DNA of 39,235 nt from assembly GCA_009889625.1 (NCBI GenBank), contig WTZU01000010.1:1-39235 (forward strand), in the 5' to 3' direction. This document shows positions 30,976 to 37,285 of the stretch, piece by piece. The translations under genes were made by a program, and so were the position numbers. Below the pieces are notes generated by a model, which was not told the origin of the DNA, did no database searches, and saw nothing but the letters and a program-made list of their open reading frames with translations. Each line of letters starts with the position of its first letter. Position 1 is the stretch's first letter. Origin of the DNA: Candidatus Hikarchaeia archaeon HikBin5 (GTDB lineage: Archaea; Halobacteriota; Halobacteria; Halobacteriales; Hikarchaeaceae).

Positions 30976-32418
30976 TTATTTTAAGTAAGCTCTAGCTTCT
31001 CGGATTAATTCTTCTTTGGATTGTTCTATTTGATTTTTATAAGTCGTGTGGAGTTTAAAATTAGAATCTAGACCTATTTTTGCATTGGAAATCGAATCCA
31101 AAACGATTCTAGGAGAGGGGCCCCCAAGTGAATCCCTCATGTTTACATTTTTAATAGGATCTAGAGCAGATTCTATTAAATCTTGGGTGCAAAATTCATC
31201 CATGGGACTTCCCATTATCGTGTTGAAATTGGAAGCTATATCTTCATAATTACTTTCTGATTTTGCTACTATTTGATGGGCTTTTCTAAAAGGAATTCCA
31301 GCCATTGTTAACGTATCTGCAACACCGGTTGCTGTGGAGAATCCATCTCCGGCGGAAGATAAGAGAAGTTCGGCATTCCAAATGGAGGTTTCTATTATTT
31401 TAGAAAGAATATTCGCAGATTCCAGCATTTTTTCTGTAGAATTCCAAATATAAGGAGTTGCAGATTGAAGGTCTCTATTGTAAGCCCGGGGGAGGCCTTT
31501 CAAAGTTGCAAAAGTGCCCGAAAAAGTAGCTAGTGTTGTTGCCGATGCTGCCCGTATTAATTCTAATGTATCGGGGTTTTTCTTTTGAGGCATAATAGAC
31601 GAAGTGGAAGCATAATCGTCGTCTATATCGACGTAATTTTTATTTGAGTAAAAAATTAAATCGTTGGAGATGTTTGAAAACGTAATAGAAAGGGAACACA
31701 AAGATGCTGCAGATTCCAATAAAAAATCTCTAGATGAGACTGCATCCATGGTATTTTCAATTATACCAGAAAATCCTAGAAGAGTGGCGGTTTTTTCACG
31801 ATTGATGGGGAAAGGAGTTCCTGCAAATGCCGCAGATCCGAGTGGTGATAGATTAATTCGGTTATACACATCAAAAAATCGTTGGATATCTCGTTCAAGG
31901 GAGCTATAGTATGATAAAAGCCAATGTGAAAGGGTTGTTGGCTGTGCATTTTGTAAATGGGTGAAACCAGGGATGATGGTTGTAGTATGATTCTTAGCCG
32001 TAGAGAGAATGACCTCTTGAAGTGATAAAACTGAATTTATTAGAGACAAAATATCATTTCTTAGTTGATAACGGATGCATGTTGAAACTTCGTCATTTCT
32101 ACTTCTGGCCGTATGCATCCTGCCCCCGGCTTCTCCAATTTTATTTACTAACTCAGTTTCAATGGCAGCGTGAATATCCTCTGCAGAGGGTAGATGTTCA
32201 AATCCAGCTTCATAGATGGAAAAAAGTCCATCGATTATCGCCTTGGCATCGGTTTTGGAGATTATATCTTCTTCAGCTAGCATTGTTACATGGGCCAAAT
32301 CCACTAGGATATCTGCCTCAAAAATATGGTGATCAACATCCATAGATGAAAGGAAACTTCTAGCAGAACCTCCACTAAATCGAGTGCCTCCTATTATGTC
32401 ATGGGAATTATTTGTCAT
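30976..32418 (-). CDS. argH: Argininosuccinate lyase
   Basis: The 480-aa fumarase/aspartase-superfamily enzyme has HTARSRNDEVST, TIIPGFTHLQNAQPTTLSHW and the signature SSIMPQKKNPD that carries the catalytic serine loop. It splits argininosuccinate into arginine and fumarate. The ATG at 32418 (MTNNSHDIIGGTRFSGG) overlaps the argG 3' end by 11 nt; a start 24 codons upstream is rejected because it runs far into argG. Confidence 0.95.
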   Translation of the reverse strand: MTNNSHDIIGGTRFSGGSARSFLSSMDVDHHIFEADILVDLAHVTMLAEEDIISKTDAKAIIDGLFSIYEAGFEHLPSAEDIHAAIETELVNKIGEAGGRMHTARSRNDEVSTCIRYQLRNDILSLINSVLSLQEVILSTAKNHTTTIIPGFTHLQNAQPTTLSHWLLSYYSSLERDIQRFFDVYNRINLSPLGSAAFAGTPFPINREKTATLLGFSGIIENTMDAVSSRDFLLESAASLCSLSITFSNISNDLIFYSNKNYVDIDDDYASTSSIMPQKKNPDTLELIRAASATTLATFSGTFATLKGLPRAYNRDLQSATPYIWNSTEKMLESANILSKIIETSIWNAELLLSSAGDGFSTATGVADTLTMAGIPFRKAHQIVAKSESNYEDIASNFNTIMGSPMDEFCTQDLIESALDPIKNVNMRDSLGGPSPRIVLDSISNAKIGLDSNFKLHTTYKNQIEQSKEELIREARAYLK

Positions 32419-33616
32419 TTTTATCAGTATGTTGTTTAGCTTCGAAGATGGCAGAAGACATCCTTTCTTGGAGTCCATGATATTTTGCAACTCCTATGGC
32501 ATCTGCTTGTGTTATATCATCTATGACATCAGAGGTATTGAAAGAAGCTGCTGATGCAGAATGTACTGCATATGGACTTTCTCGTGAAACTGCCCTTGCA
32601 TGACCGCCTTGTAAATCCAAGGTCACAGAACCAGTTACTCGTTTTTGAGTGGAAGAAATAAAACTATTTAATGCTTCGACAAAGGGCGAATATATCAATC
32701 CTAAATATGCTTGCTCTGCCCATGCATCGTCTATAGAAGTTTTGAATTTTCTTTCTTCTTTGGTAAGTACCAAATCCTCTAGTGCAGAATGGGCATTGAG
32801 AAGGGCCGTTGCGGCAGGGTGTTCATAATTTTCTCTGACTTTGAGTCCTAAAATCCGGTCTTCCATTACGTCAGTTCGCCCGACGCCAAAATTTCCACAG
32901 AGAATATTTAGATGTTCTATTAACTCCATAGGAGAATGGTTAGTACCATCTACAGCTACAGGGTACCCTTCTGCAAATTCAATGGTAACTAGTTTGGACT
33001 CTGAAGAAGGTGGTTTTGTCCACTCATAAATGGAACCAGGAGGTATAGTAGAAGGATCCTCTAGTTCCCCACCTTCGATTGATCTAGACCAGAGATTTGT
33101 GTCTATACTCCAGATCCCATCGTTTCCAGATTTTATGGGCAGGTTATTTTCTTTTGCATATTGAATTTCCCAACTTCGTGTTAATGCAAGATCGCGGATG
33201 GGTGCTGCTATTTCTAGACCAGATCCGCGCCAAACTGCTTCGAATCTCAATTGGTCGTTTCCCTTCCCGGTGCACCCGTGAGCGAGTGCCTTACATTTGG
33301 ATTTTTTTGCCTCTTCAAGAATCGCATTTGCTATTATAGGTCTAGCTAGAGCAGTTCCTAAAGGATATCCTTGGTAAGTTGCGTTTGCCCTTACTGCATC
33401 GAGACATAGATTGGCAAAATCAAATCTAGCATCGAGTATTATTAGGTCCAAAGAGAGTTCTTCTGCCGTTTCCTTTGCTTGTTCAAATTCACTTTTTGGT
33501 TGACCCACATTTACAGTGATTCCGATTACTTCATCATATCCATATTTTTCTTTGAGAAGAGACACGCAGACTGTTGTGTCAAGACCACCAGAAAATGCGA
33601 GTGCCACGCGATTCAT
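32408..33616 (-). CDS. argG: Argininosuccinate synthase
   Basis: The 402-aa N-type ATP pyrophosphatase has PP-loop SGGLDTT near residue 9, then VNVGQP, AHGCTGKGNDQLRFE, and later NFGVGRTDVMEDR. It condenses citrulline and aspartate. The ATG at 33616 is chosen over a TTG two codons before it. A TATA-like box is centred about 29 nt upstream. It is the promoter-proximal gene of the nine-gene arg block. Confidence 0.96.
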   Translation of the reverse strand: MNRVALAFSGGLDTTVCVSLLKEKYGYDEVIGITVNVGQPKSEFEQAKETAEELSLDLIILDARFDFANLCLDAVRANATYQGYPLGTALARPIIANAILEEAKKSKCKALAHGCTGKGNDQLRFEAVWRGSGLEIAAPIRDLALTRSWEIQYAKENNLPIKSGNDGIWSIDTNLWSRSIEGGELEDPSTIPPGSIYEWTKPPSSESKLVTIEFAEGYPVAVDGTNHSPMELIEHLNILCGNFGVGRTDVMEDRILGLKVRENYEHPAATALLNAHSALEDLVLTKEERKFKTSIDDAWAEQAYLGLIYSPFVEALNSFISSTQKRVTGSVTLDLQGGHARAVSRESPYAVHSASAASFNTSDVIDDITQADAIGVAKYHGLQERMSSAIFEAKQHTDKNDK

Positions 33617-33640
33617 GACCAATATATTGTAGTGATGGGT

Positions 33641-33650
33641 TATAATATGT
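33641..33650 (-). promoter_or_regulatory. TATA-like box for the arg operon
   Basis: The minus-strand ACATATTATA is centred about 29 nt upstream of the argG ATG, with no SD between. This is the likely main, leaderless promoter of the arg genes. Confidence 0.55.
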
Positions 33651-33727
33651 GATGTTTGGAACGAACAGGTGATAGGAGGGCATAAAGGAAGTAATTAACA
33701 AGATTACTAGAGATATATTCACAAGAA

Positions 33728-33735
33728 ATTTAAAT
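33728..33735 (+). promoter_or_regulatory. TATA-like box for the 404-aa membrane protein
   Basis: ATTTAAAT is centred about 26 nt upstream of the ATG at 33758, a leaderless arrangement. A 6-bp inverted repeat (AGTAAT/ATTACT, 33690-33708) lies further upstream in the same intergenic region. Confidence 0.45.
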
Positions 33736-33757
33736 GGACCAAAGTAAACGGTGAACG

Positions 33758-34972
33758 ATGAATGAAAAATTATACCCCCTTCATGCTGAAGGTCCAGATT
33801 TGATATTTGGATTCTCAACGATTTATTTTGGATTACTTGCCTTTGCTGCCATCGTTGTTTTCTTAATGTACAGAAGGAAGGGGGCATTGCCAAAGATAGG
33901 TGAACCATATTATGATTTGATGGTCCTTGTATTGGGAATGTGGTGGTTAGGTGGACTTCTAATCGATGCGTTTGCGCATATTTCAGGAGTAGTGGATGAT
34001 ACTTTTTTCACTCCGTGGCATGCCATATGGTATGCAGGTGCTACTGCGTATGGAGCATATATGTTTTATGCCATTATCCCAGAAGATGGGCTTGGGAGTC
34101 TTGTAAGAAAACCATTGGAGACTATACAAAGTATCGCTCCAGAACACAAGGCAGGAGTTTATGGAATTATTCTGTTTGGACTATCAGGATTTGGAGATAT
34201 GATCTGGCACGAAACCCTCGGTGTTGAAACAAGTGTAGATATCCTTCTTTCTCCCGCCCATATTGGACTTTTCATTGGACTTATGATGGCAGTTACGGCG
34301 CCGATGTGGTCGGCGTGGGCTGACGAAAAAAGTGGCAGGGATGGTTTCAAATCGCAAGTGGTGATTGTTTTTGGGCTTGGTGCGGCATGGGTTGGTACAG
34401 TACTGATTACCCTTTATGGAAATATTTGGTTTGATCCCCTACAAACATTCTGTTATGATGGGGGCGGGTCTTATTGTTTGAATGAGATTTATGATGTTGG
34501 ATTGAGCCAGGGAATGCGGGCTTTGTTAATTCAAGCTGTTGTGAGTTCAATTGTGGTCTTACTTTTCATTCGTCGGTGGATGCCTGCCCGGGGGAGTCTA
34601 TTTGTTCTTTTCATATTCCCTGCAATTGGTATTTGGGTCTACAGTGAATTTAATAATGCATTATTATTGATGGGTATTGCGTGGGCAATTATTGTAGAAC
34701 TTGGCCTACCCATTCTTCAAAGAGGTAGGAAACATTTGTTTGTACCATTGGTCACTACAAGCCAAGTTGGTGTGTTCATGGTTTCATGGTTATGGCGAGC
34801 TGAAGAGTGGGTAAGTGAGATATATTGGATAGAAGGAACCAACTTACATATATTTCCGTTTGGTTGGACTATTCATGCTACATTTGGGGCTTTGGTCATG
34901 TGCGCATTTATTGGCTGGATTGTAAGTGTTATTGCGTTTCCGCCCCCAATCCCAGGTCTCAAGGGGGATTAA
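33758..34972 (+). CDS. Histidine-rich polytopic membrane protein, unknown
   Basis: The 404-aa protein has about eleven hydrophobic helices. Histidines and acids sit within or at the edge of membrane segments: D70 and H74 (LIDAFAHI), H88 (FFTPWHAIWYAG), D147, H151 and E152 (GFGDMIWHETLG), H168 (LLSPAHIGLFIG) and H373 (WTIHATFGA). Such paired WH and PxH motifs suggest metal or heme binding. I recall bacterial hypothetical proteins with a similar WHE, then LLSPxH, pattern, but I cannot name a family. Two cysteines (C232, C240) lie in one loop. It has its own TATA box and is followed 39 nt later by another membrane protein. Confidence 0.8.
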   Translation: MNEKLYPLHAEGPDLIFGFSTIYFGLLAFAAIVVFLMYRRKGALPKIGEPYYDLMVLVLGMWWLGGLLIDAFAHISGVVDDTFFTPWHAIWYAGATAYGAYMFYAIIPEDGLGSLVRKPLETIQSIAPEHKAGVYGIILFGLSGFGDMIWHETLGVETSVDILLSPAHIGLFIGLMMAVTAPMWSAWADEKSGRDGFKSQVVIVFGLGAAWVGTVLITLYGNIWFDPLQTFCYDGGGSYCLNEIYDVGLSQGMRALLIQAVVSSIVVLLFIRRWMPARGSLFVLFIFPAIGIWVYSEFNNALLLMGIAWAIIVELGLPILQRGRKHLFVPLVTTSQVGVFMVSWLWRAEEWVSEIYWIEGTNLHIFPFGWTIHATFGALVMCAFIGWIVSVIAFPPPIPGLKGD

Positions 34973-35011
34973 TAAAAACGTAGAAAAGGTCTGAAATAAA
35001 AGGTCAACCAT

Positions 35012-35467
35012 ATGTCAACATTTTTGGGTGGAGCAATAGCAGGAGGGATTGGAGGGATTGTTATAGCACTATTGATCAATTTCGTTCTGAATAAAAATAT
35101 AGAACAAGATGGACCCCTACCGGGCGCATTATTTATTTCTAAATATATAGGACATAAAGATCCTCGTGAATACCAAAAAGAGGGTTTGGTTATAAGTGTA
35201 GTTTATGCTTGTTTGTTGGGGGGCATTATTTCAATGTTATTTGCAGGTATAATTACAGCCATGGGGATGGTGATATTAGTAGGATTGTTAATCGGTGGAG
35301 GAGTGGGAATAATAAATGAAAAGGTATGGATGCAGAAGATATTGGGAATAAGAATGGATTGGGAATGGAAAAATAGATCCGTTTCTCAATCGCGTATAAA
35401 ATTTATGTTTACAAATATAATATATGGGATGGTTGTTTTGGGAATAATAACATATGGAGGAATATGA
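35012..35467 (+). CDS. Glycine-rich membrane protein, unknown
   Basis: The 151-aa product has an N-terminal helix (about 4-27), two closely spaced helices (about 61-103, very Gly-rich) and a C-terminal helix (about 130-149). The loop after helix 1 reads DGPLPGALFISKYIGHKDPREYQKEG in two parts and looks conserved in style. I do not recognise it. It lies between the 404-aa membrane protein and the 2H phosphoesterase-like gene on the same strand, with gaps of 39 and 18 nt. Confidence 0.7.
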   Translation: MSTFLGGAIAGGIGGIVIALLINFVLNKNIEQDGPLPGALFISKYIGHKDPREYQKEGLVISVVYACLLGGIISMLFAGIITAMGMVILVGLLIGGGVGIINEKVWMQKILGIRMDWEWKNRSVSQSRIKFMFTNIIYGMVVLGIITYGGI

Positions 35468-35485
35468 AGTGGGAGAATTGATCCT

Positions 35486-35974
35486 GTGTGGAGTTTAAAT
35501 GTCACAATACCTCAAAAAGTAAGTAGATTGATTGAGGAGATGGCACCAGCATTGTGGAATTGGGAAGAAATTTGTGAAGATCCAACATTGGTAATTAAAC
35601 GTTTTGAAACAAAAACTGCAAAAGAGGAAACTGAGATTAGACTTTTATTAGAAAAGATAGAACCATTTGATGTCCAAATCGGAAATATAAGAACTTTTGA
35701 TATTGCACAGAGGGGAATTTCACCGGTTTTGTATATAGAAGTAGAAAGTCCAGGAATTGAGGCGCTTCATGAAATGTTAGTGGGCATTTTTGGATGTGTA
35801 AAAGGAATAGAGGGCCAAGACTATACACCACATATAACATTGGCTAGAGGAGAATGTAGAGAATATATCGAATTTGAGGAACGCCCAGATCCAATACAGT
35901 GGGAAGCTGATGAATTGGAATTTTGGCATAGTGGCAAAATGCAAAAGAGGAATAAGATAAAATTGAAAAAATAA
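35486..35974 (+). CDS. 2'-5' RNA ligase/cyclic phosphodiesterase-like (2H) protein with one HxT motif
   Basis: The 162-aa product keeps the C-terminal half-site YTPHITLARG (H116, T118) and the VLYIEVESPGIEALH strand-helix of LigT-like proteins. Where the first HxT would stand, the sequence reads LVIKRFET, so one catalytic histidine is missing. I recall haloarchaeal relatives with the same KRF block. The GTG start yields MWSLNVTIP, which matches the family start. It may bind RNA or nucleotide phosphates without classical 2H chemistry. Confidence 0.75.
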   Translation: MWSLNVTIPQKVSRLIEEMAPALWNWEEICEDPTLVIKRFETKTAKEETEIRLLLEKIEPFDVQIGNIRTFDIAQRGISPVLYIEVESPGIEALHEMLVGIFGCVKGIEGQDYTPHITLARGECREYIEFEERPDPIQWEADELEFWHSGKMQKRNKIKLKK

Positions 35975-36073
35975 ATAAGTTAAGACTTGTTTTTTCTGAA
36001 AGAATAAGAGAGGATACGGAAAATAGATTTTGACATCGTAACAGACAAGAATGAAAGATGCGCCTAACACAGT

Positions 36074-37285
36074 ATGGGGCCGATTGAATGGAAAAATATC
36101 TATCGTCTGGCACATCCCAGACAGATGGGACTTATTGCGATTGCACATGCATTGCATGAGTTTTATTGCGTGGTCTTACCCCCTATTATACCATTTATTG
36201 TTATTGATTTTGAGGTTTCATATTCCCAGGCGGGGTGGTTGGTGACTGTTTTTTATATAGTATATGCGTTGTTCCAACTTCCGTCCGGCATTTTGGCTGA
36301 TAAAATTGGGAAACGGTATGTTCTGGGGTTGGGACTAGTGTTGTTAGCAATTGGTGTAATTCTTGCAAGTATGGCAAATACATATCAAGCATTGTTATTG
36401 TCCCAAGTGGTTGCAGGGATAGGAGGTAGTACATATCACCCCGCTGGTTTGTCTGCAGTGTCAGATTTAGAGAGTGGCAAAACCGCAGGTAAAGCCATGG
36501 GATTCCACGGATTGGGAGGAGCTATTGGGACTGCATTGGCCCCTGCAGTCATAGGAGGAATAATCCTATTTACTGATTCTTGGCGTTTGGCCCTCTCAAT
36601 CACTGCAATTGTAGGAATTGTATATGCTGTTTTGTTCCATAAAGAATTTATTGAACCTGATGGTCCTATAGAGAATATAGGAAAGAAAATTACAATATCG
36701 GATAGAAAAATAAAAACTCAAATTAAAGAGTTCCCATGGGGGCCGTGGGTTGTTGGATTGGTTTCTATCAATTTTTTATTAGGAGTGGAAATTGGAGCAG
36801 CTAGGACTTTCACTACTTCTTATGTATTTTTGAGAAGTTCAGAGATGGTTGGTTTTGCGAATACTGTATTTTTTGTTATGCTTGTTGGTGCAGGAGTATC
36901 GACAATTGGAATAGGACCGCTTGCAGATATATTCGACAAAAAAAATCTTGGTGCTTTAACGTTTGTAATGACAGGGTTTCTATTGGTTTTAACATGGATT
37001 GTTCCGCCAAATAAAATGCTCCTCATAGGGTTATTTTTCCTTATAGGCGCCATGATGTGGACAACTGTTCCAGTTATGAATGCATTGACAGCAACATATG
37101 CCAAAACTGAATTTTCAGGGATGTTGTTTGCTTTGACTTTGACAGGTTCGGCACTAGGTAATTCTATGGGGCCATTTATGTTTGGGATAATCCTAGAACA
37201 TGTAGACATTATGGTTGCATATCCGATTATAGCTTCATCTAGTCTCGTCGGAGCGATTGCATTTCTCATAATGAAGAGATATTAA
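36074..37285 (+). CDS. MFS transporter, fosmidomycin-resistance-like subgroup
   Basis: The 403-aa protein has twelve predicted helices. The N-terminal half has AIAHALHEFYCVVLPPIIP, SQAGWLVTVFYIVYALFQ, then LADKIGKRYVLGLG (the MFS helix 2-3 motif) and GIGGSTYHPAGLSAV. The YHPAG plus FHGLGGAIGTALAP pattern is that of FsR-type transporters. The substrate is unknown; export of small phosphonates or metabolites is only a family possibility. The 99-nt upstream gap holds no gene. Confidence 0.87.
   Translation: MGPIEWKNIYRLAHPRQMGLIAIAHALHEFYCVVLPPIIPFIVIDFEVSYSQAGWLVTVFYIVYALFQLPSGILADKIGKRYVLGLGLVLLAIGVILASMANTYQALLLSQVVAGIGGSTYHPAGLSAVSDLESGKTAGKAMGFHGLGGAIGTALAPAVIGGIILFTDSWRLALSITAIVGIVYAVLFHKEFIEPDGPIENIGKKITISDRKIKTQIKEFPWGPWVVGLVSINFLLGVEIGAARTFTTSYVFLRSSEMVGFANTVFFVMLVGAGVSTIGIGPLADIFDKKNLGALTFVMTGFLLVLTWIVPPNKMLLIGLFFLIGAMMWTTVPVMNALTATYAKTEFSGMLFALTLTGSALGNSMGPFMFGIILEHVDIMVAYPIIASSSLVGAIAFLIMKRY

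Follow-up and report, generated by a model that had tools for sequence, protein, structure and literature searches.

PmoC/AmoC (Pfam PF04896; PDB 7s4h, 7yzy and 9leg) is the subunit type of the copper membrane monooxygenases (CuMMOs) in which the CuC and CuD sites are located. The ligands of CuC in PmoC are Asp156, His160 and His173, those of CuD are Asn227, His231 and His245, and the two sites are about 6 Å apart (PMC12576850). Of the two, CuD, whose ligands are neutral, is regarded as the site of catalysis in pMMO (PMC11194816). In the literature searched, an incomplete set, no relatives of PmoC/AmoC were found apart from the CuMMOs proper and their additional single copies of xmoC, and no prior description was found of the 404-aa protein family presented here. 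The first-pass annotation of this DNA had been unable to place the protein in any known system; it can now be placed, with good support, as a new stand-alone and distant branch of the PmoC/AmoC (CuMMO) superfamily. Like the CuMMOs of the Thermoplasmata (Angelarchaeales), it is archaeal and keeps the AmoC/PmoC C-site ligands, but the Angelarchaeales CuMMOs are encoded in recognisable amo/pmoCAXB clusters (PMC9038741), whereas a lone C-like gene is present in the Hikarchaeia-like and Poseidoniales genomes.

The window, which is the whole stretch of 39,235 nucleotides that was analysed, corresponds to contig C2 of a 1.07 Mb bin (41% G+C, 70.5% complete) belonging to a small family within the order that also contains the haloarchaea. 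The 404-aa gene starts with ATG and lies in the order divergent argG, 404-aa gene, 151-aa gene, LigT-like gene and MFS gene. A second copy, with 68% identity, was present on contig C4 of the same genome. A fragment at the edge of contig C14 (G000:C14:1-84; L003/L007), with one stop and 61% identity to residues 334-361, is a possible third copy. The AlphaFold model (pTM 0.90) had about eleven membrane helices, in agreement with the polytopic protein predicted by the first-pass annotation. The features of the gene are listed in Table 1.

Table 1. Features of the 404-aa gene, with positions in the window
Feature	Position	Strand	Basis
Gene for a probable PmoC-related integral membrane protein, 404 aa, 11 predicted TM helices	33758..34972	+	ORF list; AlphaFold mean pLDDT 92.3; 549 relatives
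Four-TM-helix core, residues 46-192, aligned with the PmoC CuC/CuD region	33893..34333	+	Fragment model pLDDT 89.1; Foldseek; merged-profile hhalign
Hairpin 1, residues 66-94, with D70, H74, T85 and H88; aligned with PmoC CuC D156/H160/H173	33953..34039	+	Invariance in 81 sequences; joint alignment; PMC12576850
Hairpin 2, residues 144-171, with D147, H151, E157 and S165-P166-x-H168; aligned with PmoC CuD N227/H231/H245, Asn to Asp	34187..34270	+	Invariance in 81 sequences; joint alignment
C-terminal six helices, residues 193-404, outside the PmoC-aligned part; C232 and H373 in archaea	34334..34969	+	Clade-wise conservation

The 151-aa gene (35012-35467) encodes a Gly-rich protein that had been suggested as a subunit of the 404-aa protein, the two forming an enzyme or transporter of the membrane. 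As such a pairing would lead one to expect, the genes lie side by side in the same direction, only 39 bp apart, but the pair was not conserved when related loci were compared, and no 151-aa homologue was found beside the 404-aa relatives at these loci. The sister genome G003 (locus L211) kept argG, the 151-aa gene, the LigT-like gene and the MFS gene in the same order as positions 32408-37285 of the window, with only about 136 bases between the 151-aa gene and argG, and no 404-aa gene was found there or elsewhere in that genome; in genome G002 the two genes were on different contigs. As this gene order is kept with and without the 404-aa gene, the latter was either acquired at or lost from this conserved locus, and a partnership of the two proteins is extremely unlikely. 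Weak relatives of the 151-aa protein were present in several haloarchaeal genomes, and a larger haloarchaeal sample contained no relative of the 404-aa protein.

Relatives of the 404-aa protein were retrieved in one scan of GTDB genomes with two patterns, [DE][TS]FFT[PW]WH and an LLSP-x-H motif. The scan yielded 549 relatives, 80 of which were retained, giving 81 sequences with the window protein. The retained relatives were from archaea (Poseidoniales and a Halobacteriales bin), Actinomycetota, Chloroflexota, Bacillota and Rokubacteria, and in the tree the archaeal rows were set apart by a branch with strong support. The distribution of the family is patchy. A full-length member was present in about 17 of the 194 genomes of one Poseidoniales-order sample, and in none of the 394 sampled genomes of the window's phylum, the window's own genome excepted. 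The best named relative was labelled 'Halobacteriales archaeon isolate ALOHA'. On plasmids, tblastn matches were named 'hypothetical protein' in Deinococcus, Arthrobacter and Rhodococcus and were unannotated in Nonomuraea and Paenibacillus; the Deinococcus plasmid homologues carried D70, H74, H88, D147, H151, H168 and E157, which are described below. Searches of Pfam, NCBIfam, PHROGs and PDB sequences with the 404-aa family gave no match above threshold, a viral fold library gave no match, and the window protein matched no transporter family in Pfam.

Twelve residues were invariant in the 81 sequences, namely D70, T85, W87, H88, Y92, H74, D147, H151, E157, S165, P166 and H168. Invariance at the motif positions is partly due to selection, because the two motifs were used for retrieval; D70, H74, D147, H151 and E157 lie outside both patterns, and the invariance of the six Asp/His residues is far beyond chance. 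These six belong to two tandem helix hairpins of the form D-x3-H…(T/S)PxH, with the spacings D70-x3-H74-x13-H88 and D147-x3-H151-x16-H168, and the two hairpins resembled each other within the family (E 0.002). The six residues had all been named in the first-pass annotation, and the other two that it named fared less well: E152 was kept only in the closest archaeal relatives, being T in most bacteria, and H373 was present in 19 of 19 archaeal rows, whereas most bacteria have E at this position. An acidic residue that is invariant but had been overlooked is E157.

The D-x3-H…H spacing of both hairpins led us to suspect a relationship to PmoC. PmoC sequences were taken from Methylomirabilota and viral contigs and were checked against solved PmoC chains. 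When the window family was aligned directly with PmoC by hhalign, the hairpins were in register, but 20 of 400 shuffles scored as high and reversed PmoC scored higher, and hmmsearch from the family to PmoC did not separate PmoC from background. A regular expression for the double hairpin was fitted post hoc and has illustrative value only. The Pfam AmoC model (PF04896) matched none of the 81 members at E 1 and nothing in the window's genome, while the same model gave matches in Methylomirabilota. As the direct comparison fails these controls, the link to PmoC depends on a bridging family.

This bridging family, of about 545 aa, is from Poseidoniales (L198-L207; e.g. L198:6639-8267) and was retrieved by the profile of the 404-aa family (E 3e-9 to 4e-5) without any PmoC input. 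It has no Pfam match and no name was found for it. It shares the two hairpins with the window family but differs in having a fused C-terminal domain, which opens with SGHTIH/SAH and closes with a TM helix. The motifs of the bridging family, DLQWHTDVGRDKLFTPPH and DDFWHTSYGVDTTIITPPH, are spaced as in PmoC, and the Arg165-Asp166 pair is among the shared features. In profile comparisons the bridging family matched the window family with an E-value of 1.3e-6 and PmoC with 0.003, with 0 of 300 shuffles scoring as high. The C-terminal six helices of the 404-aa protein are partly common to the bridging family, with the hhalign alignment reaching residue 331 in one run. A PmoB-like origin of the fused C-terminal domain was also considered and was unsupported by hhalign against one PmoB.

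The merged profile of the window and bridging families matched PmoC with an hhalign E-value of 2.6e-5, colinearly over both hairpins. Its score of 40.3 compares with 13.7 ± 2.4 (maximum 22.1) for shuffled controls, 0 of 300 being as high, and with 10.3 for the reversed control. All 10 PmoC sequences (26.9-42.0) outscored all 93 real membrane decoys (maximum 21.6). When 35 sequences were aligned jointly, with PmoC numbering set by alignment to the published ligands, ten columns were conserved, namely the six copper-ligand positions plus D166/E, T170, E237/D and P243. The CuC positions were kept in all sequences as D70, H74 and H88. At CuD, two of the three positions were identical (H151 and H168), and Asn227 was replaced by Asp147 in all sequences, a conservative change, so that all six positions are shared and five are identical.

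When the model of the core fragment was searched with Foldseek against 350,542 PDB chains, PmoC 7yzy_C was ranked 2 of 40 (best probability 0.38, TMq 0.46) and AmoC 9leg_C was also among the 40 matches; the two E-values were weak (2.1 and 8.2), and taken alone this predicted likeness is only suggestive. With the full-length model, PmoC was absent among the 50 matches listed. These weak Foldseek scores, together with the non-significant comparison of the window family alone and the presence of about eleven helices, more than in PmoC, are what would be expected if an unrelated polytopic protein had acquired similar DxxxH...PxH hairpins by convergence. Such an origin is improbable given the merged-profile E-value with its clean shuffled and reversed controls, the separation of PmoC from every real membrane decoy, and the agreement in colinear order, spacing and second-shell positions D166/E237. 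Judged from the sequences, the site-bearing core is very probably homologous to PmoC. The 404-aa family and PmoC share a colinear four-helix core with two hairpins and the equivalents of D166/E, T170, E237/D and P243. Unlike PmoC/AmoC, the 404-aa family possesses an additional C-terminal half, which brings it to about eleven helices, has no match to the Pfam AmoC model and lies outside any xmoCAB operon, and none of the genomes tested yielded PmoA or PmoB. The models for these two subunits (PF02461 and PF04744) gave no match in 11 genomes with the 404-aa or the bridging family, the window's genome among them being 70.5% complete, and both were found in the control genome G430.

In the model, D70, H74, H88, D147, H151 and H168 lie where helices 52-75/86-105 and 128-154/166-188 end on one and the same side of the membrane. 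The loops on this side contained 1 K/R, compared with 12 on the opposite side, so that by the positive-inside rule the site would face outwards and be extracytoplasmic. The first-pass annotation had proposed binding of metal or heme. The first of these is strongly supported by the six invariant Asp/His residues at PmoC copper-ligand positions. A heme-binding membrane protein with His ligands would account for several conserved intramembrane histidines and for a sub-threshold NCBIfam match to TcuB, which scored 15.5 bits where the cutoff is 246.6. However, there is an invariant Asp beside each His pair, the spacing is PmoC-like and placed at the helix ends, unlike the paired mid-membrane His of b-type cytochromes, and no cytochrome family was matched in the library searches. 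Heme binding is therefore very unlikely.

The explanation that we prefer, and regard as fairly probable taken as a whole, is that the 404-aa gene product is a stand-alone, distant homologue of PmoC/AmoC with metal sites and a redox role. The two tandem hairpins would bring two Asp-His-His triads next to each other, close to the extracytoplasmic side of the membrane, and by analogy with the closely spaced sites of PmoC these triads may hold copper (one or two ions) or some other metal. Metal binding at the two sites is likely on this analogy, and copper is a reasonably probable identity for the metal. The bound metal would most likely act in a redox reaction with O2, a membrane-soluble substrate or both, for which a small molecule or a quinol would serve as donor, in the absence of PmoA and PmoB. 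Catalysis, as opposed to copper handling, is put forward tentatively, and the protein is possibly an oxidase or oxygenase. As the Asn to Asp change at CuD alters the charge of the presumed catalytic site of pMMO (PMC11194816), the chemistry may differ in the 404-aa family.

In Nonomuraea relatives and Paenibacillus, at about 26 bacterial loci, the gene directly 3' of the family gene encodes a secreted protein in which two His triads are invariant. A gene for a PCu(A)C+YtkA protein followed the family gene in an Anaerolineaceae bin, and in Rhodococcus and Deinococcus the family gene was near a multicopper oxidase, ctaD or a heavy-metal P-type ATPase. No conserved neighbour was found for the archaeal members among related loci. 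Together with the run of genes around the bridging family described below, these neighbours point to copper, as anecdotal evidence, and loosely to the oxidation of a lipid-like substrate. With no PmoA or PmoB and no conserved archaeal operon, the substrate cannot be read off.

The same neighbours may be taken to indicate that the PmoC-homologous site handles copper or zinc, as a membrane store, a sensor, an importer, or a means of delivery to or from the secreted His-triad protein. This role would fit the PCu(A)C/YtkA gene, the heavy-metal P-type ATPase with a metal-sensitive regulator, the secreted protein with its two H...HxH triads, and a multicopper oxidase with SHOCT and two-component genes, as well as the carboxylate present in both sites, unlike the CuD site of pMMO. 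The close archaeal relatives, however, are without conserved neighbours, and the bridging-family genes are found in an enzymatic-looking context, in a recurring run that has a ketoacyl-synthase III-like gene and its 237-aa neighbour on one side and, on the other, an epimerase/SDR gene together with a conserved gene of about 430 aa. Metal handling is possible but rather doubtful, and a redox role for the stand-alone PmoC homologue is preferred.

Several hundred stand-alone relatives with intact copper-ligand positions would supply an outgroup for tracing how methane and ammonia oxidation arose, and the family would offer simple single-chain models to probe the roles of CuC and CuD. Marine archaea with no recognised monooxygenase would gain a candidate copper redox enzyme. 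A wider proposal, which we consider speculative and somewhat unlikely, is that these proteins are widespread, unrecognised one- or two-component copper oxygenases of marine archaea and soil bacteria, which share a common ancestor with PmoC/AmoC, act on lipid-like substrates without PmoA/PmoB, and show the origin of the methane and ammonia monooxygenases.

Some further observations were made on the family and its neighbours. The His-triad neighbour (L043:6080-7414, L083:5957-6769 and relatives) was a secreted protein or lipoprotein with two invariant H-x12-HxH motifs and no Pfam match, and from these motifs it is possibly copper-binding; a PmoB-like origin for it was unsupported by hhalign against one PmoB. 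Poseidoniales proteins of about 748 aa (G666:C80, G586:C46) weakly matched positions 205-312 of the model only, and may be either a further relative of the C-terminal half or a chance match. In one Anaerolineaceae bin, three family members were arranged in tandem (L088:4860-8317).
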